Shown here piece by piece: positions 44,698-49,931 of a DNA stretch of 64,000 nucleotides. A program made the translations under genes and the position numbers. The notes below the pieces were generated by a model. The model was not told the DNA's origin, ran no database searches, and saw only the letters and a program-made list of their open reading frames with translations. The stretch's first letter is position 1. Every line of letters starts with the position of its first letter. The stretch is from Neptunicoccus cionae (lineage in GTDB: Bacteria > Pseudomonadota > Alphaproteobacteria > Rhodobacterales > Rhodobacteraceae). The stretch spans positions 62,001 through 126,000 of the forward strand of contig NZ_BMKA01000003.1 in the NCBI RefSeq assembly GCF_014643735.1, written 5' to 3'.

Positions 44698-45969
44698 TTA
44701 CTGGAGCGCCTCATAACGGCCTTTGGCCTCGTCCGCAGCAGTCTGGCGGGCGGCGGCCTGTTCCGTTGCTTCTGCCGCTTCCTCCTGCGCGTTTGAAGCT
44801 TGGGTTTGGGCCGTTTCAACGTCTGCGCGGGCGTCCGTTTCTGCCTGCTGTGCCGCGTTCAGTTCGGCTTGGGCTTGCTGCAGGCTAGACTGGGCTGTTT
44901 CGATGGCTTCCCTTGCAGTTTGCAGCGCAGCTTCTGCTTGGGCCTGCGTGTTAGAGGCTTCACCGGCTGCGGTTTCGGCCTCACTGACCAGTGTGGCCGC
45001 TGTGTCATACTCGGACTGGGCCTGTGCCAGTTCGGCGCGGCGCTGCTCTGCTGCGGCTTCTGCATCGGTTACAGCGGCTTGTGCGGCAGCGATGGCATCC
45101 TTGAAGCCCTGTGCGGCTTCGCTTGCCGCATTCAAACGCTGTTGGGCTGCATCTGCTTGGGCCTGATCGCTTTGCGCTTTGGCTTCGGCGGCTTCGAGGG
45201 CTTCTTGTGTGGCCCGCGCAGCGTCTCGGGCGGTCTCTGCTGCTGTTCGGGTCTGGTCGAGCAGTGTTTCGTCGATCGCCGCTTGGGTTTCAGCACCATC
45301 GCTGGAACCAACCTGTGATTCCAGTTCCGCCAGCTTTTCTTCGGCGGCGGCGGCGTTTTCTTCCGCCTGCTCGGCCACGTTTCGGGCATTGTGGGCGGGA
45401 CCGGCAGAGGCCTCGGCGGTGGCAACTGCGCTGCTCATTTCACGCTCTGCTACGGCTTCTTGGGCCAGCTCGTCCTGACCTTCGGCCTCAGCCGCGTCTA
45501 GGGCGGATTGTGCGGCGGTAACATCGTCCTGTGCTTTGGCGTAGGCGGCTTTCGCCCCTTCTAGCGTTTCCATTGGCGCGTCCAGCGACTCTTCTTGGAC
45601 TGCATCGCGTGCAACCTGTGTTGCCTGCGCTGTTGTCTCAACTTGGGTTTCAGCTTCGGGAAGTGCAGCCTCCGCAGCAGACACCGCCTCTTCGGCCGCA
45701 GCGACAGCTTCTTGTGCCGCCTTAACTGCCGCCTCGCTCGTTGCCACCCGCTGTTGGGCTGTTTCTACCGCAGCACCGGCGGCTTCGGCCCGCGCAACTG
45801 CGTCGGCTTGTGTCTGCACGGCGGTTTGTGCTGCAACCTGCGCTGACTCCGCTTCGTTCTTTGCCGCCTCAAACACAGCCTGACGGTCCCGCGAGTTTTT
45901 GTCGACGACCCCCCAAACAGCAATCAGCACGATCAGCGCAAGCGCGATAAATCCAGCAATCTTTTTCAT
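44698..45969 (-). CDS. Membrane-anchored Ala/Gln/Glu coiled-coil protein
   Basis: Unrecognised 423-residue protein. I chose ATG 45969: an AAGGGA site lies six bases before it, whereas the ATG at 45975 is too close. An N-terminal anchor (KKIAGFIALALIVLIAVWGVVDKNS) is followed by about 390 residues made almost only of Ala, Gln, Glu, Thr and Asp in helical repeats (AAQEAVAAAEEAVSAAEAALP). There is no cysteine or catalytic motif. It would form a long coiled-coil rod outside the cytoplasmic membrane. Low complexity means homology calls would be unreliable. Confidence 0.72.
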   Translation of the reverse strand: MKKIAGFIALALIVLIAVWGVVDKNSRDRQAVFEAAKNEAESAQVAAQTAVQTQADAVARAEAAGAAVETAQQRVATSEAAVKAAQEAVAAAEEAVSAAEAALPEAETQVETTAQATQVARDAVQEESLDAPMETLEGAKAAYAKAQDDVTAAQSALDAAEAEGQDELAQEAVAEREMSSAVATAEASAGPAHNARNVAEQAEENAAAAEEKLAELESQVGSSDGAETQAAIDETLLDQTRTAAETARDAARATQEALEAAEAKAQSDQAQADAAQQRLNAASEAAQGFKDAIAAAQAAVTDAEAAAEQRRAELAQAQSEYDTAATLVSEAETAAGEASNTQAQAEAALQTAREAIETAQSSLQQAQAELNAAQQAETDARADVETAQTQASNAQEEAAEATEQAAARQTAADEAKGRYEALQ

Positions 45970-46180
45970 TTCCATCCCTTGGTCTTTTAACAGGCCACCC
46001 CAACACCGGTGGTGGCGATAATGCGCTTTTCAGCTTGGGGATTTGGGCGAGGCTTGCAAGACCTAATTGGAATGATACCCCTAATTCCGACGGCACCAAG
46101 TGTTTTCGGGGCCTATTAAAAATGGGAGGTTGAACCTTTCGCAGTGCAGGGCTACATAATAGGCACATTTTAAAGCTACA

Positions 46181-46782: not shown

Positions 46783-46808
46783 AAGGCGCCTTCGGGCGCC
46801 TTTTATTT
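46783..46808. terminator. Rho-independent terminator of infC
   Basis: AAGGCGCC, a TTCG loop, GGCGCCTT, then TTATTTT. It overlaps the last codons of the convergent GrdB-like gene and may also act for that strand. Confidence 0.92.
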
Positions 46809-47693
46809 TGCCTTCACGGCTTTGGCCTGTTCCTTGACCCGATCAAATTCCGCCCGTTTGGCGGCAATCTCTGCCGCGCTCAGCAAATCGGGATTGGAAT
46901 AATCCTTCTGCCAATCTGCCTCGCCGGACCAGACGATTGGCGACTGACGTGTTGTTCGCGGTGCCGTGGCATCAGCCAAAAGCTGCACCGCCATGCGGGC
47001 TGTTTCCAGCTGCGCGTCCGGATTATCGGGCAAACCAGCACCGTTCCCCAGAGGAAAGTTGCAGAACAACAGCCGAGGCACCCCGACACGTTCAACAATA
47101 TCCCGCGCGCAGCCCATGACCACCGTTGGAACGCCGGCCGCTTCCAGCGTGTGTGCCGCAATCGAAACTGACTGATGGCAGACCGGGCAATTCGGCACGA
47201 GAACAACCCCGTCGAGCGCATCTTCCTGCGCAAATCCGACCAGCGCCTCGGCATCCGCGCGCGTGCGCGACTGGGACCGGTTGGTGGGGAGCCCGTAAAA
47301 CCGCTGTGCAACTGCTCCGATTTCTCCGGCGGCGGCCAGCTTTTGCAGGGCTTGCAACGGAAAATAACTCCGCTGGTCCGCCGCAGTCGTGTGCACACGA
47401 TCATAAGCGATGTGGGATATGCCAAGCACCGGTTCAGGGTCCACAGTCGCAGCGAAAGGTTCGAAAAACTTCGCCGCCCCGTTATACGGCGCACCCGCGC
47501 CCTGCTCTCCCGCGCCCGCCTTTATCGGGGCTGCCGTGGTAACAATCCCGATACGCGCCGCGCCCAACGATGTGGCAAGCGGCGTGAACGGCACTGTTTC
47601 ATGAACCGCCCATTCATAAGGCGCACCATAGCCAAGCGCTTGATAATAGGCGCGAATGCGCGGGATGTAGTCAAGTGGCGGGTGCGTTGTCAT
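46803..47693 (-). CDS. GrdB-like protein (glycine/sarcosine/betaine reductase selenoprotein B family)
   Basis: A 296-residue protein resembling proteobacterial members of the glycine/betaine/sarcosine reductase B family: MTTHPPLDYIPRIRAYYQALGYGAPYEW, RIGIVTTAAPIK, SHIAYDR and DGVVLVPNCPVCHQSVSIAAHTLEAAGVPTVVMG. The PNCPVCH motif sits near the place of the redox-active site in GrdB, where selenocysteine occurs in anaerobes; here both positions are cysteine. Its activity in aerobes is unknown. It is divergent from the nitrile hydratase operon, 73 bases apart, so the two may share regulation. Confidence 0.62.
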   Translation of the reverse strand: MTTHPPLDYIPRIRAYYQALGYGAPYEWAVHETVPFTPLATSLGAARIGIVTTAAPIKAGAGEQGAGAPYNGAAKFFEPFAATVDPEPVLGISHIAYDRVHTTAADQRSYFPLQALQKLAAAGEIGAVAQRFYGLPTNRSQSRTRADAEALVGFAQEDALDGVVLVPNCPVCHQSVSIAAHTLEAAGVPTVVMGCARDIVERVGVPRLLFCNFPLGNGAGLPDNPDAQLETARMAVQLLADATAPRTTRQSPIVWSGEADWQKDYSNPDLLSAAEIAAKRAEFDRVKEQAKAVKAK

Positions 47694-47766: not shown

Positions 47767-48111
47767 ATGGAAACGGATAAAATACACCGCTGGCATGATA
47801 TGGGTGGCCAGCCCGCCGGAGAGATCAATCGCGAAGAGCACGATTTTGCCCTTTGGGAAAAGCGTGTTGATGCCTTGCAGGTGCTGACCTCTACTAAGGG
47901 GTACTTCACCGTGGACGGCCTGCGCCGCGTGTTGGAGGATATGGGCGAAGAAGCCTTTGAAACCATGACCTATTACGAACGCTGGGTGCAATCTGTGAAC
48001 CAGAACCTGCTGGAGGCCGGCGCTTATACGATCGCTGAACTGGCTGAACGGATGGAGCAGGTCCAATCCCGTGGCGAAACTTACGGCGAATGCGCCGGAC
48101 CGGGCGAGTGA
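47767..48111 (+). CDS. Nitrile hydratase beta N-terminal half, or NHase accessory/thiocyanate hydrolase beta-like subunit
   Basis: A 114-residue protein with the N-terminal domain of nitrile hydratase beta chains: MGGQPAGEINREEHDFALWEKRVDALQVLTS, then FTVDGLRRVLEDM (carrying the arginine position that contacts the active site in full beta chains) and YYERWVQSVNQNLLEAGAYTIAELAERM. It stops where the beta linker would begin. Homologs include cobalt-inserting accessory proteins and the beta subunit of three-part thiocyanate hydrolase. Its stop overlaps the next start (TGATG). Confidence 0.85.
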   Translation: METDKIHRWHDMGGQPAGEINREEHDFALWEKRVDALQVLTSTKGYFTVDGLRRVLEDMGEEAFETMTYYERWVQSVNQNLLEAGAYTIAELAERMEQVQSRGETYGECAGPGE

Positions 48112-48389
48112 TGGGCCAACCGCAAAGAGTGCGTGTCAAGGACTGGCACCCCCCCGGCCATATACGCGCACCACACTATCTGCGCGGAAAAACCGGAGAG
48201 ATAGAGCGGGAACTCGGTCCGTTCGCCAATCCCGAAGAACTCGCCTACGGACACAAAGCTAGCCGCCGCCGACTGCTGCGGGTCCGCTTTACGATGGGTG
48301 AGCTCTGGGGGGCAGAAGCGGAAAACCCTGCCGATATCCTAGAAGCTGAAATTTACGAACACTGGTTGGATCCGATCAATGCCACATGA
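48111..48389 (+). CDS. Nitrile hydratase beta C-terminal half (SH3-like domain), thiocyanate hydrolase alpha-like
   Basis: A 92-residue protein from ATG 48111 that matches only the C-terminal SH3-like barrel of nitrile hydratase beta: VKDWHPPGHIRAPHYLRGKTGEIERELG and RLLRVRFTMGELWGAEAEN, ending YEHWLDPI. The HIRAPHYLRGK segment carries the second arginine that clamps the metal claw. Together with the previous gene it makes one full beta chain from two genes, as in thiocyanate hydrolase or toyocamycin nitrile hydratase. It overlaps the alpha gene by 11 bases. Confidence 0.85.
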   Translation: MGQPQRVRVKDWHPPGHIRAPHYLRGKTGEIERELGPFANPEELAYGHKASRRRLLRVRFTMGELWGAEAENPADILEAEIYEHWLDPINAT

Positions 48390-49032
48390 CCACCACGACC
48401 ATTCGCACGAGACCGACGGGCTCAGCCCTTCGGGGCATCCGTATCAACCGGATCAGGATCACAAGATAACCCGCTGGCAAACAATGGAAATTGCTATGCG
48501 TGAATTGCTGATAGAAAAAGGTATTATCACGGCTGCGGAAATCACAGCGACAGTAGAACAAATGGATCGCCGCTCCCCTGCGGATGGTGCAAAGGTTGTG
48601 GCGCGGGCTTGGGTTGACCCCGCTTTCAAAGCGCGCCTGCTTGAAAACGGCACCGAGGCTATCCGTGAATTAGGTGTTGAACCGGGCGTCCTGAAACTGA
48701 TCGCGGTGGAAAACACGTCAGCGGTGCATAACGTTGTCGTTTGCACGCTGTGTTCGTGTTATCCGCGCAATCTGCTGGGCCTGCCGCCGGATTGGTACAA
48801 ACAACGGGCCTATCGCTCTCGCGTGGTGAAAACACCGCGTAAAGTGCTGTCCGAATTTGGACTGGAACTGCCCGATTCTGTGCAGGTTCGTGTCCACGAC
48901 AGCACCGCTGACATGCGCTATCTGGTGGTTCCGCAGCGTCCCGACGGCACCGACGGAATGGACGAAACCGCGTTGGCAGATCTTGTCAGCCGCGATGCAA
49001 TGATCGGCGTCGCCGTCGCGCGGCACCTGTAA
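48379..49032 (+). CDS. Cobalt-type nitrile hydratase alpha (or thiocyanate hydrolase gamma) subunit
   Basis: A 217-residue protein with the metal claw C122-T-L-C125-S-C127 in VVVCTLCSCYPRNLLGLPPDWYK. Threonine after the first cysteine is the cobalt-type form; iron enzymes have serine. Two of the cysteines are normally oxidised to sulfinic and sulfenic acids. Further family marks are ARAWVDPAFKARLLENGTEA and VRVHDSTADMRYLVVPQRP. The N terminus is histidine-rich (MPHDHHDHSHETDG), possibly for metal capture. The enzyme hydrates nitriles to amides, or thiocyanate if of the three-subunit type. Coupled to both neighbours. Confidence 0.9.
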   Translation: MPHDHHDHSHETDGLSPSGHPYQPDQDHKITRWQTMEIAMRELLIEKGIITAAEITATVEQMDRRSPADGAKVVARAWVDPAFKARLLENGTEAIRELGVEPGVLKLIAVENTSAVHNVVVCTLCSCYPRNLLGLPPDWYKQRAYRSRVVKTPRKVLSEFGLELPDSVQVRVHDSTADMRYLVVPQRPDGTDGMDETALADLVSRDAMIGVAVARHL

Positions 49033-49931
49033 TGGCTGCGCTTAACCGGTATTGGAGCGGGCTTGGACCGCTGGCCAAGGGTGCGCTGATGTTCATCCTC
49101 ACTATCTTTTTGTTTTCCATCATGGACAGTATTGCGAAGTCGCTGTCCCAAAGGCATCACCCGCTGGAAGTCGTCTGGGCCCGTTACACCGCGCAAACCG
49201 TGATCGCCTTTCTGGTGCTCTCACCGCATCTGCGACGCCTTTTACGCACAGATCATTTAATGCTGCAGATTGTTCGCTCGGCTTTTCTGTTCGGCGCTAC
49301 GATGTGCTTCTTTACGTCACTGGCTTTTATGGAAATGGCATCCGCCACTGCAATATTTGAGATCGCGCCCCTGTTCCTGACCATTGCCGGTTATTTCGTC
49401 CTCAAGGAAAAGGTCGGCCCGCGCCGCTGGATCGGGGTTTTTATCGGCCTGATCGGAGCCATGATTATCATCCGCCCCGGATCTGACGTATTCACGCCGG
49501 TTGCCCTGCTGCCTGCACTGGCCGCCGCCTGTTTCAGTGGCTACGCGATTTCCACCCGTTTTCTGGGGCAGGAAGAAAGCCCCTGGACCAGTTTCCTCTA
49601 CACAGCTTTGATCGGCTGCATCGCCAGTTGCTTTATCGTCCCCTTCGTCTGGTCGACACCATCACTGGTTGATGTGGGTCGTATGTCGATGATGGGTGTT
49701 GTCGGCGGCATCGGCCACCTGTTCCTGATCCGCGCCTTCACCATTACCGAGGCGTCATACCTTGCGCCTTTTGGCTATCTAACCCTGCTATTCAACGCTT
49801 TTTGGGCCTATATGTTCTTTGCAGAAGTCCCCGACCGCGCCACGGTTATTGGTGGCGCAGTGATCGTCTTTGCAGGCGTTTATGTCTGGTATCGAGAGAG
49901 TTTTGGCGCGAAAAAAGCGGTCACAACCTAA
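49032..49931 (+). CDS. EamA/DMT-family transporter of the nitrile hydratase operon
   Basis: A 299-residue protein with about ten membrane segments and two EamA halves: DSIAKSLSQRHHPLEVVWARYTAQ, LFGATMCFFTSLAFMEMASATAIFEIAPLFLTIAGYFVLKEKVG, and SYLAPFGYLTLLFNAFWAYMFFAEVPDRATVIGGAVIV. The start overlaps the stop of the alpha subunit (TAATG), so it belongs to the same transcript. It may move the substrate or product of the hydratase; the group is broad and specificity cannot be read from sequence. Confidence 0.87.
   Translation: MAALNRYWSGLGPLAKGALMFILTIFLFSIMDSIAKSLSQRHHPLEVVWARYTAQTVIAFLVLSPHLRRLLRTDHLMLQIVRSAFLFGATMCFFTSLAFMEMASATAIFEIAPLFLTIAGYFVLKEKVGPRRWIGVFIGLIGAMIIIRPGSDVFTPVALLPALAAACFSGYAISTRFLGQEESPWTSFLYTALIGCIASCFIVPFVWSTPSLVDVGRMSMMGVVGGIGHLFLIRAFTITEASYLAPFGYLTLLFNAFWAYMFFAEVPDRATVIGGAVIVFAGVYVWYRESFGAKKAVTT

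Follow-up and report, generated by a model that had tools for sequence, protein, structure and literature searches.

A split-beta nitrile hydratase-superfamily cluster in Neptunicoccus cionae: a probable cobalt enzyme without a separate activator

Classical cobalt nitrile hydratases are encoded by nthA, nthB and an activator gene, and the toyocamycin nitrile hydratase (ToyJ/K/L) has three subunits. Thiocyanate hydrolase (SCNase; ScnA/B/C, PDB 2dd4) is built in three parts, and a review gives its gene order as alpha-beta-gamma-activator (PMC7193024). A three-subunit cobalt nitrile hydratase with no activator gene, AnhD-AnhE-AnhA (AnhDEA), is described from Streptomyces canus CGMCC 13662 (PMC7329996). 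According to that account, AnhD and AnhE are the two halves of the beta chain and both are needed, AnhD is also a chaperone, an AnhD2-A complex hands holo-alpha to the apo-enzyme, and the enzyme contains 0.84 mol of cobalt per mol, transforms acetamiprid and is almost inactive on indole-3-acetonitrile; the alpha subunit alone is reported there to be sufficient for activity in the TNHase of S. rimosus. Here we analyse a cluster of the same kind, the genes b1, b2 and alpha, in a stretch of 64,000 nucleotides of Neptunicoccus cionae (contig NZ_BMKA01000003.1, positions 62,001 to 126,000), called the window below. We consider it probable (roughly 0.7) that the three genes encode one cobalt enzyme of the nitrile hydratase superfamily, in which b1 is both the N-terminal beta subunit and the cobalt chaperone, with no separate activator.

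The window cluster resembles AnhDEA in that the N half and the C half of the beta chain occupy two genes, in the order N-C-alpha. AnhDEA is a cobalt enzyme without an activator gene; for the window cluster, complex formation, the chaperone role, cobalt and the features of the pocket are inferred. The sequence-only reading of this DNA had described three overlapping genes, namely a 114-residue beta N half, a 92-residue C half and an alpha chain with a CTLCSC claw, followed by a transporter beginning inside the alpha stop codon. Coordinates and Pfam matches confirm this description, and the proposal of a three-part hydratase is supported. The features are as follows.

47767-48111, plus strand: b1, ATG to TGA, 114 residues; NHase_beta_N (PF21006, 8.9e-18); equivalent of AnhD and ScnB
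47923-47928, plus strand: b1 Arg53-Arg54; in the alignment, Arg53 is in the column of SCNase Arg91 and Arg54 in that of SCNase Arg92
48111-48389, plus strand: b2, ATG to TGA, 92 residues, SH3-like C half of the beta chain; NHase_beta_C (PF02211, 4.5e-19); equivalent of AnhE and ScnA
48379-49032, plus strand: alpha, 217 residues, metal-binding subunit with the start MPHDHHDHSH; NHase_alpha (PF02979, 1.1e-81)
48742-48759, plus strand: cobalt-type claw C-T-L-C-S-C, alpha residues 122-127
48766-48768, plus strand: alpha Arg130, third residue after the claw, at the place of SCNase gamma Arg136
49032-49931, plus strand: EamA transporter of the drug/metabolite transporter (DMT) type, 299 residues; PF00892 (1.7e-27) in two stretches

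The four genes lie on one strand without gaps. The b1 and b2 genes are in different frames and overlap by 1 nt, the A of the b2 ATG being common to the b1 TGA; b2 and alpha overlap by 11 nt, and alpha and the transporter by one base, the transporter ATG starting on the final base of the alpha TAA. The alpha sequence is HNVVVCTLCSCYPRN, in which the claw is followed by Y-P-R. On the NCBI beta model TIGR03888 (226 positions, cut-off 152.2 bits), b1 matches the N part with 60.7 bits and b2 scores 67.9 bits, so that there is no single beta chain above the cut-off, only two halves in separate genes. The halves cover model positions 2-103 and 143-225, and the missing part is therefore mainly linker. 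The correspondence of beta-N with ScnB and of beta-C with ScnA was confirmed. No match to the accessory (activator) model TIGR03889 was found for b1, which matches the beta model only. Alpha passes the nitrile hydratase model TIGR01323 (257.1 bits, cut-off 249.85) and fails the thiocyanate hydrolase model TIGR03887 (211.4 bits, cut-off 291.45), on which Roseomonas ScnC scores 359.2 bits.

Halves in different frames with a 1-nt overlap are also what a beta gene broken or frameshifted by sequencing might look like, and a sequencing error had been named in the sequence-only reading as a possible refutation. In a contig scan with alpha, the best 80 of 548 loci were kept as relatives (L001-L080; L061, which is similar to L060 and sits in the same assembly, is counted among them). 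The top three, from a Rhodobacteraceae metagenome-assembled genome, Neptunicoccus sediminis and Amylibacter cionae, are 89-91% identical. Both beta halves are present in 77 of the 80 relatives, and in all 77 they are separate open reading frames (ORFs) in separate frames; two of the three exceptions (L029 and L070) end at a contig edge, and the third, L026, is taken up below. The ratio of nonsynonymous to synonymous substitution rates (dN/dS) against L001-L003 is 0.021-0.026 for b1, 0.036-0.057 for b2, 0.037-0.058 for alpha and, for the transporter, 0.033-0.051. With L006, which is further removed, the values are 0.081 for b1 and 0.117 for alpha, and b2 is saturated. Since the same split recurs in 77 of 77 loci and dN/dS is 0.02-0.06, the split is no sequencing error, and a broken beta gene or pseudogene is refuted, its remaining likelihood being practically nil.

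A separate full-length beta gene elsewhere had been the other refutation proposed. No further alpha or beta gene, including a second N gene, was found within the 64-kb window; beyond it, such a gene was sought in relatives, and the genomes of L001, L002 and L003 have one PF21006 match apiece. Of 30 genomes picked among those of the fetched loci, 26 contain just one PF21006 match; of the remaining four, G030 carries the same cluster twice, G018 carries a pair of three-gene clusters, and in G019 and G022 there are two additional N places, apparently parts of a classical set. An even sample of 148 genomes of Rhodobacterales, partly overlapping with the genomes of L001-L080, contains a PF02979 match in 93 genomes and a PF21006 match in 93, while none of 14 control genomes has a match. 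In 35 of the 148 genomes an N gene precedes alpha by 250-800 nt on one strand, at 37 places in all. Nine of these places had been typed earlier (L002, L007, L032, L044, L047, L129, L130, L131 and L133), and the 28 newly typed ones are all N-C-A with Arg after the claw. In 34 of the 35 genomes, all PF21006 matches fall in a three-gene cluster, and an enzyme without a separate activator seems to fit these relatives, as judged by their PF21006 proteins. One further genome, G442, was counted as having one N, but its cluster (L132) turned out to be classical, with a weak activator.

The suggestion in the sequence-only reading that the first gene also works as the cobalt chaperone is consistent with these 34 genomes and with the AnhD biochemistry as published (PMC7329996). 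Alternatively, b1 may be a structural half only, with cobalt entering alpha directly and no chaperone. The S. canus apo-enzyme, given cobalt under dithiothreitol with no activator, indeed reached 36% of full activity, but holo-AnhDA brought it to 54%, according to the same account (PMC7329996). Moreover, activators and beta-N proteins share PF21006, and the SCNase activator groups with its own beta-N (see below), so that a purely structural b1 appears rather unlikely.

To place the cluster in the family, 135 loci (window included) were typed with profiles grown from the window proteins. With N and C for the beta halves, A for alpha and '+' for one ORF, the builds are 84 N-C-A, 3 C-A, 6 C-A-N, 31 A-N+C-N, 7 N+C-A-N, 3 A-N-C-N and 1 A-N+C; these proportions are not a census, because the first 80 loci were chosen as relatives of the window alpha. 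Exactly one N gene is present in the N-C-A clusters (the window and 83 others) and in the C-A-N clusters, and a second N (activator) is present in 41 of the 42 clusters of other builds; at L100, no activator was found in the stretch examined. Plasmid-borne N-C-A clusters were also found in Planktothrix (L081) and Streptomyces (L124), and plasmid-borne C-A-N clusters in Rhizobium, Agrobacterium, Microvirga, Polymorphobacter and Azospirillum. The three A-N-C-N loci have a split beta like the window but retain a separate activator, and lie among the classical enzymes in the tree; those of Aminobacter MSH1 and Gloeocapsopsis (L089 and L093) also retain Trp after the claw. They are a separate case, and beta splitting therefore arose more than once.

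The residue after the claw follows the same division. The third residue is Arg in all 93 one-N clusters (the type in which one beta-N protein occurs without a separate activator), and in the 42 others it is Trp in 37, His in 2, Phe in 2 and Arg in one (L087), which is annotated and scored as a thiocyanate hydrolase. None of the 41 classical clusters has Arg there, and an activator was seen in 40 of these. The window cluster shares with classical cobalt nitrile hydratases the domains, the claw and the first Arg of the b1 Arg-Arg (RR) pair, and differs from their mostly fused beta, separate activator and Trp, His or Phe in the third place. In the T. thioparus thiocyanate hydrolase the residue in question is gamma Arg136, and chain C of PDB 3vyg, which we take to be the matching mutant of Arg136, has Trp at position 136. 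The selectivity of SCNase is reportedly governed by gamma Arg136 and beta Arg90.

In a fresh test, 240 alphaproteobacterial genomes were searched for the claw motif in its Arg and in its Trp form, and each form was found in 40. Twenty Arg and 20 Trp loci among the matches listed were typed; profile hits of at most 19 bits, in which N and alpha match one another, were excluded from the typing. One Trp locus, L173, and L115 are a single gene, and the genomes G046 and G169 were already in the earlier sets. Among these, 19 of the 20 Arg loci have the N-C-A build, and no second N scoring over 20 bits was found in them, the downstream flank being 1.25 kb (0.4 and 0.6 kb in L135 and L146). None of the 20 Trp loci is N-C-A; 18 have a fused beta, 18 have a second N downstream of C, and in L164 and L167 no second N was found within 1.25 kb.

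The RR pair at b1 Arg53-Arg54, the first of which is presumably beta Arg52 of the classical enzymes, stands in every one-N row of the alignment (22 of 22), in the two SCNase beta-N rows and in no row of classical beta-N (0 of 26). The pair was rejected as a perfect mark, since a loose pattern found it in 15 of 19 fresh Arg loci and also matched 2 of 20 Trp loci; L154 has RK at this site. The place of SCNase beta Arg90, which is said to bear on selectivity, is occupied by Leu52 in b1 and by Lys in L124. In three Arg-type loci (L136, L137 and L147) the N gene is shortened or degenerate, without the usual Arg53 region.

The trees, whose roots were not inferred, separate the same two groups. The alpha tree, built from 70 loci and T. 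thioparus, has one branch (support 100/99) that parts the rows with Arg from all others. A joined N+C+alpha tree, made from 55 loci and T. thioparus on 382 columns after masking of both diagnostic Arg positions, sets 31 classical rows against 23 one-N rows and two thiocyanate hydrolases, again at 100/99. The common-type Rhodobacterales rows form one clade (100/99). The Streptomyces locus L124, which has the same gene order as S. canus and serves here as its stand-in, groups with the C-A-N plasmid type (98/94), on the same side as the window. By sequence, the window enzyme belongs to this broad one-N branch.

The sequence-only reading had also offered a thiocyanate hydrolase, and the pocket gives this some ground: as a thiocyanate hydrolase or a close functional equal of one, the window enzyme would hold an anion such as thiocyanate with the pocket Arg and yield carbonyl sulfide and ammonia. 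The beta split, the three-part build, the N-half RR and the Arg136 equivalent (93 of 93 one-N clusters) are all common to both, and SCNase stands on the one-N side of the tree, where its activator also falls with its own beta-N. Nevertheless, SCNase has features of its own, namely a second, activator-like N (L087), Arg90 in place of the b1 Leu, an insert before the claw and a different NCBI equivalog, whose cut-off the window alpha misses as given above. The two thiocyanate hydrolases form their own long branch, which excludes the window (100/100). The window is on the same side of the tree as SCNase and not within the SCNase clade; in the form in which it was put, the identification is not supported, although the Arg136 place is shared, and we consider thiocyanate hydrolysis by the window enzyme distinctly unlikely.

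In the joined tree the SCNase branch stands beside the Streptomyces and C-A-N rows, nested in the one-N rows at 94/96. One-N rows without SCNase as a single group are not rejected, however (approximately unbiased test, p-AU 0.47 for the alpha tree, and 0.554 with a slightly higher likelihood in the N-domain tests), so that SCNase may be either nested or sister, and its derivation from one-N clusters as a proven descent was dropped. The N-domain tree (77 rows, 108 columns) has 26 classical activators on one side (100/99), and the b1 and other one-N rows together with SCNase beta-N and the SCNase activator (99/100); that activator, a single row (L087), groups with its own beta-N at 96/90. This suggests a second, separate origin for the SCNase activator, but two origins are not proven, as all activators held together are not rejected (p-AU 0.166). 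Classical beta-N as one side is likewise not rejected (p-AU 0.32), which bears on whether the one-N state predates the activator duplication.

A wider generalisation may be drawn, which we regard as doubtful as a whole: the superfamily would consist of two great halves, of which the overlooked one is about as frequent in Alphaproteobacteria as the classical Trp form. In that half beta-N would both build and cobalt-load the enzyme, the Arg pocket would be of the SCNase type and the substrate a small or anionic C-N compound rather than an organic nitrile, and SCNase would lie inside it, with an activator from a second, separate beta-N duplication.

On the interpretation we prefer, with b1 as subunit and chaperone, b1 and b2 would jointly replace the beta chain, and alpha would hold the Co(III) claw. 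By analogy with AnhD in the AnhD2-A complex, b1 would first bind apo-alpha; cobalt would enter and the claw cysteines would be oxidised, after which holo-alpha would be handed into the b1-b2-alpha enzyme. Since b1 would bind and load alpha and then sit in the enzyme, it would be chaperone and subunit in one. The metal-bound claw may then hydrate a small substrate with a C-N triple bond, in a pocket that alpha Arg130 and b1 Arg53/Arg54 would make more polar than that of classical nitrile hydratases.

Several observations weigh against this interpretation. L026 has a C half and alpha and room for more, and no beta-N match was detected there. The remaining fresh Arg locus, L143, is an alpha alone, 249 nt from a contig end. 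G351, the exception among the 35 Rhodobacterales genomes, has the three-gene cluster plus a classical set, so that activator sharing is possible there. The Streptomyces stand-in is not the nearest kin of the window clade, and as the pockets differ, the nitrile activity of S. canus may not carry over to the window enzyme. Among the annotated neighbour families there is no amidase or cobalt transporter (one representative was annotated for part of the 45 families listed), and the commonest unannotated family, an unnamed 196-residue ORF found at 44 loci, has no Pfam match.

These neighbours also bear on a further alternative, an ordinary organic-nitrile hydratase which would, for instance, convert indole-3-acetonitrile to auxin, with the transporter moving substrate or product. 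Alpha passes the nitrile hydratase model, and nitrile hydratases of marine Rhodobacterales, which may or may not be of the one-N type, are read in this way in print (PMC12114110, PMC3230580). The S. canus three-subunit enzyme, in contrast, is described as almost inactive on indole-3-acetonitrile (PMC7329996), Arg replaces Trp after the claw, and no amidase is among the annotated neighbours. The transporter, which the sequence-only reading had taken as belonging to the enzyme, adjoins in only 21 of 80 loci; its claim to be a functional partner is weak and was downgraded. We think the organic-nitrile alternative rather improbable, and caution that auxin synthesis from indole-3-acetonitrile should not be read off gene names alone.

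The kind of enzyme is already known from one characterised case, and the window cluster is a further member, real and widespread. Within the literature consulted, the biochemistry of the activator-free three-subunit hydratase comes from one Streptomyces, and the type is widespread in Rhodobacterales (35 of 148 genomes) and found also beyond them. No statement of the wider pattern of Arg, no activator and a place on the thiocyanate-hydrolase side of the family, of the Rhodobacterales type or of the residue rule was found in the open-licence literature searched. As the residue after the claw predicts whether there is a separate activator, the chaperone question is directly testable. Split beta halves are easily missed in annotation: RefSeq-derived records name both halves in L081, and one in L124, as 'SH3-like domain-containing protein'. 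The beta chain of Roseobacter CCS2 was regarded as truncated in a published tree (PMC3323583), and we infer that this is a split beta.

Around the cluster, neighbours were counted at 80 loci (window included, L061 excluded), some of them on short contigs. EamA adjoins in 21, a gene of the lipid A acyltransferase family lies downstream in 51, both are present in 11 and neither in 19. The other frequent neighbours are DUF1223 (56), aconitase (53), the 196-residue ORF and a FliG-like gene (38). It looks like a cluster at a settled chromosomal place, as judged from gene content, and not like a nitrile-degradation operon. Downstream of L124 lie aquaporin and NiCoT genes, in contrast to EamA in the window.

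The claw is CTLCSC in 134 of the 135 typed loci, the window included. The alpha of L020 (Jannaschia pagri) reads RTLCSC, with the first claw cysteine replaced in a cluster otherwise normal, and is either a dead copy or an assembly error; the alpha of L186, probably from the same contig, has the same change. In Rhodobacterales, L129, L130 and L131 make up another N-C-A subfamily, divergent from the common one (LITCTLCSCYPRSILGQPPSWY; SFYRRR replacing TYYERW), which occurs beside the common type in two genomes and alone in one, and these copies also have Arg after the claw. A histidine-rich alpha start was rejected as a mark of the one-N type, being present in both kinds (at least four His in 87 of 92 one-N alphas and in 18 of 42 others, by a rough rule). 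The beta-N and alpha profiles weakly cross-match each other's protein in the window (47767-48108 and 48379-49029; 14.4 and 13.7 bits), and matches of this kind are seen again in many of the Arg loci; a common origin is possible for the beta-N helix and the helix that precedes the claw region.

Upstream, on the minus strand, the ORF at 46803-47693 has no Pfam match and is weakly similar to D-proline reductase PrdB and to glycine/betaine reductase selenoprotein B (TIGR04483, 66.8 bits, cut-off 300), with no PDB relative by sequence; members of its family are present at 5 of the 80 loci, the window being one of them. Also on the minus strand, 44698-45975 encodes a repetitive protein of 425 residues, rich in Ala, Glu and Gln, with weak coiled-coil matches only.

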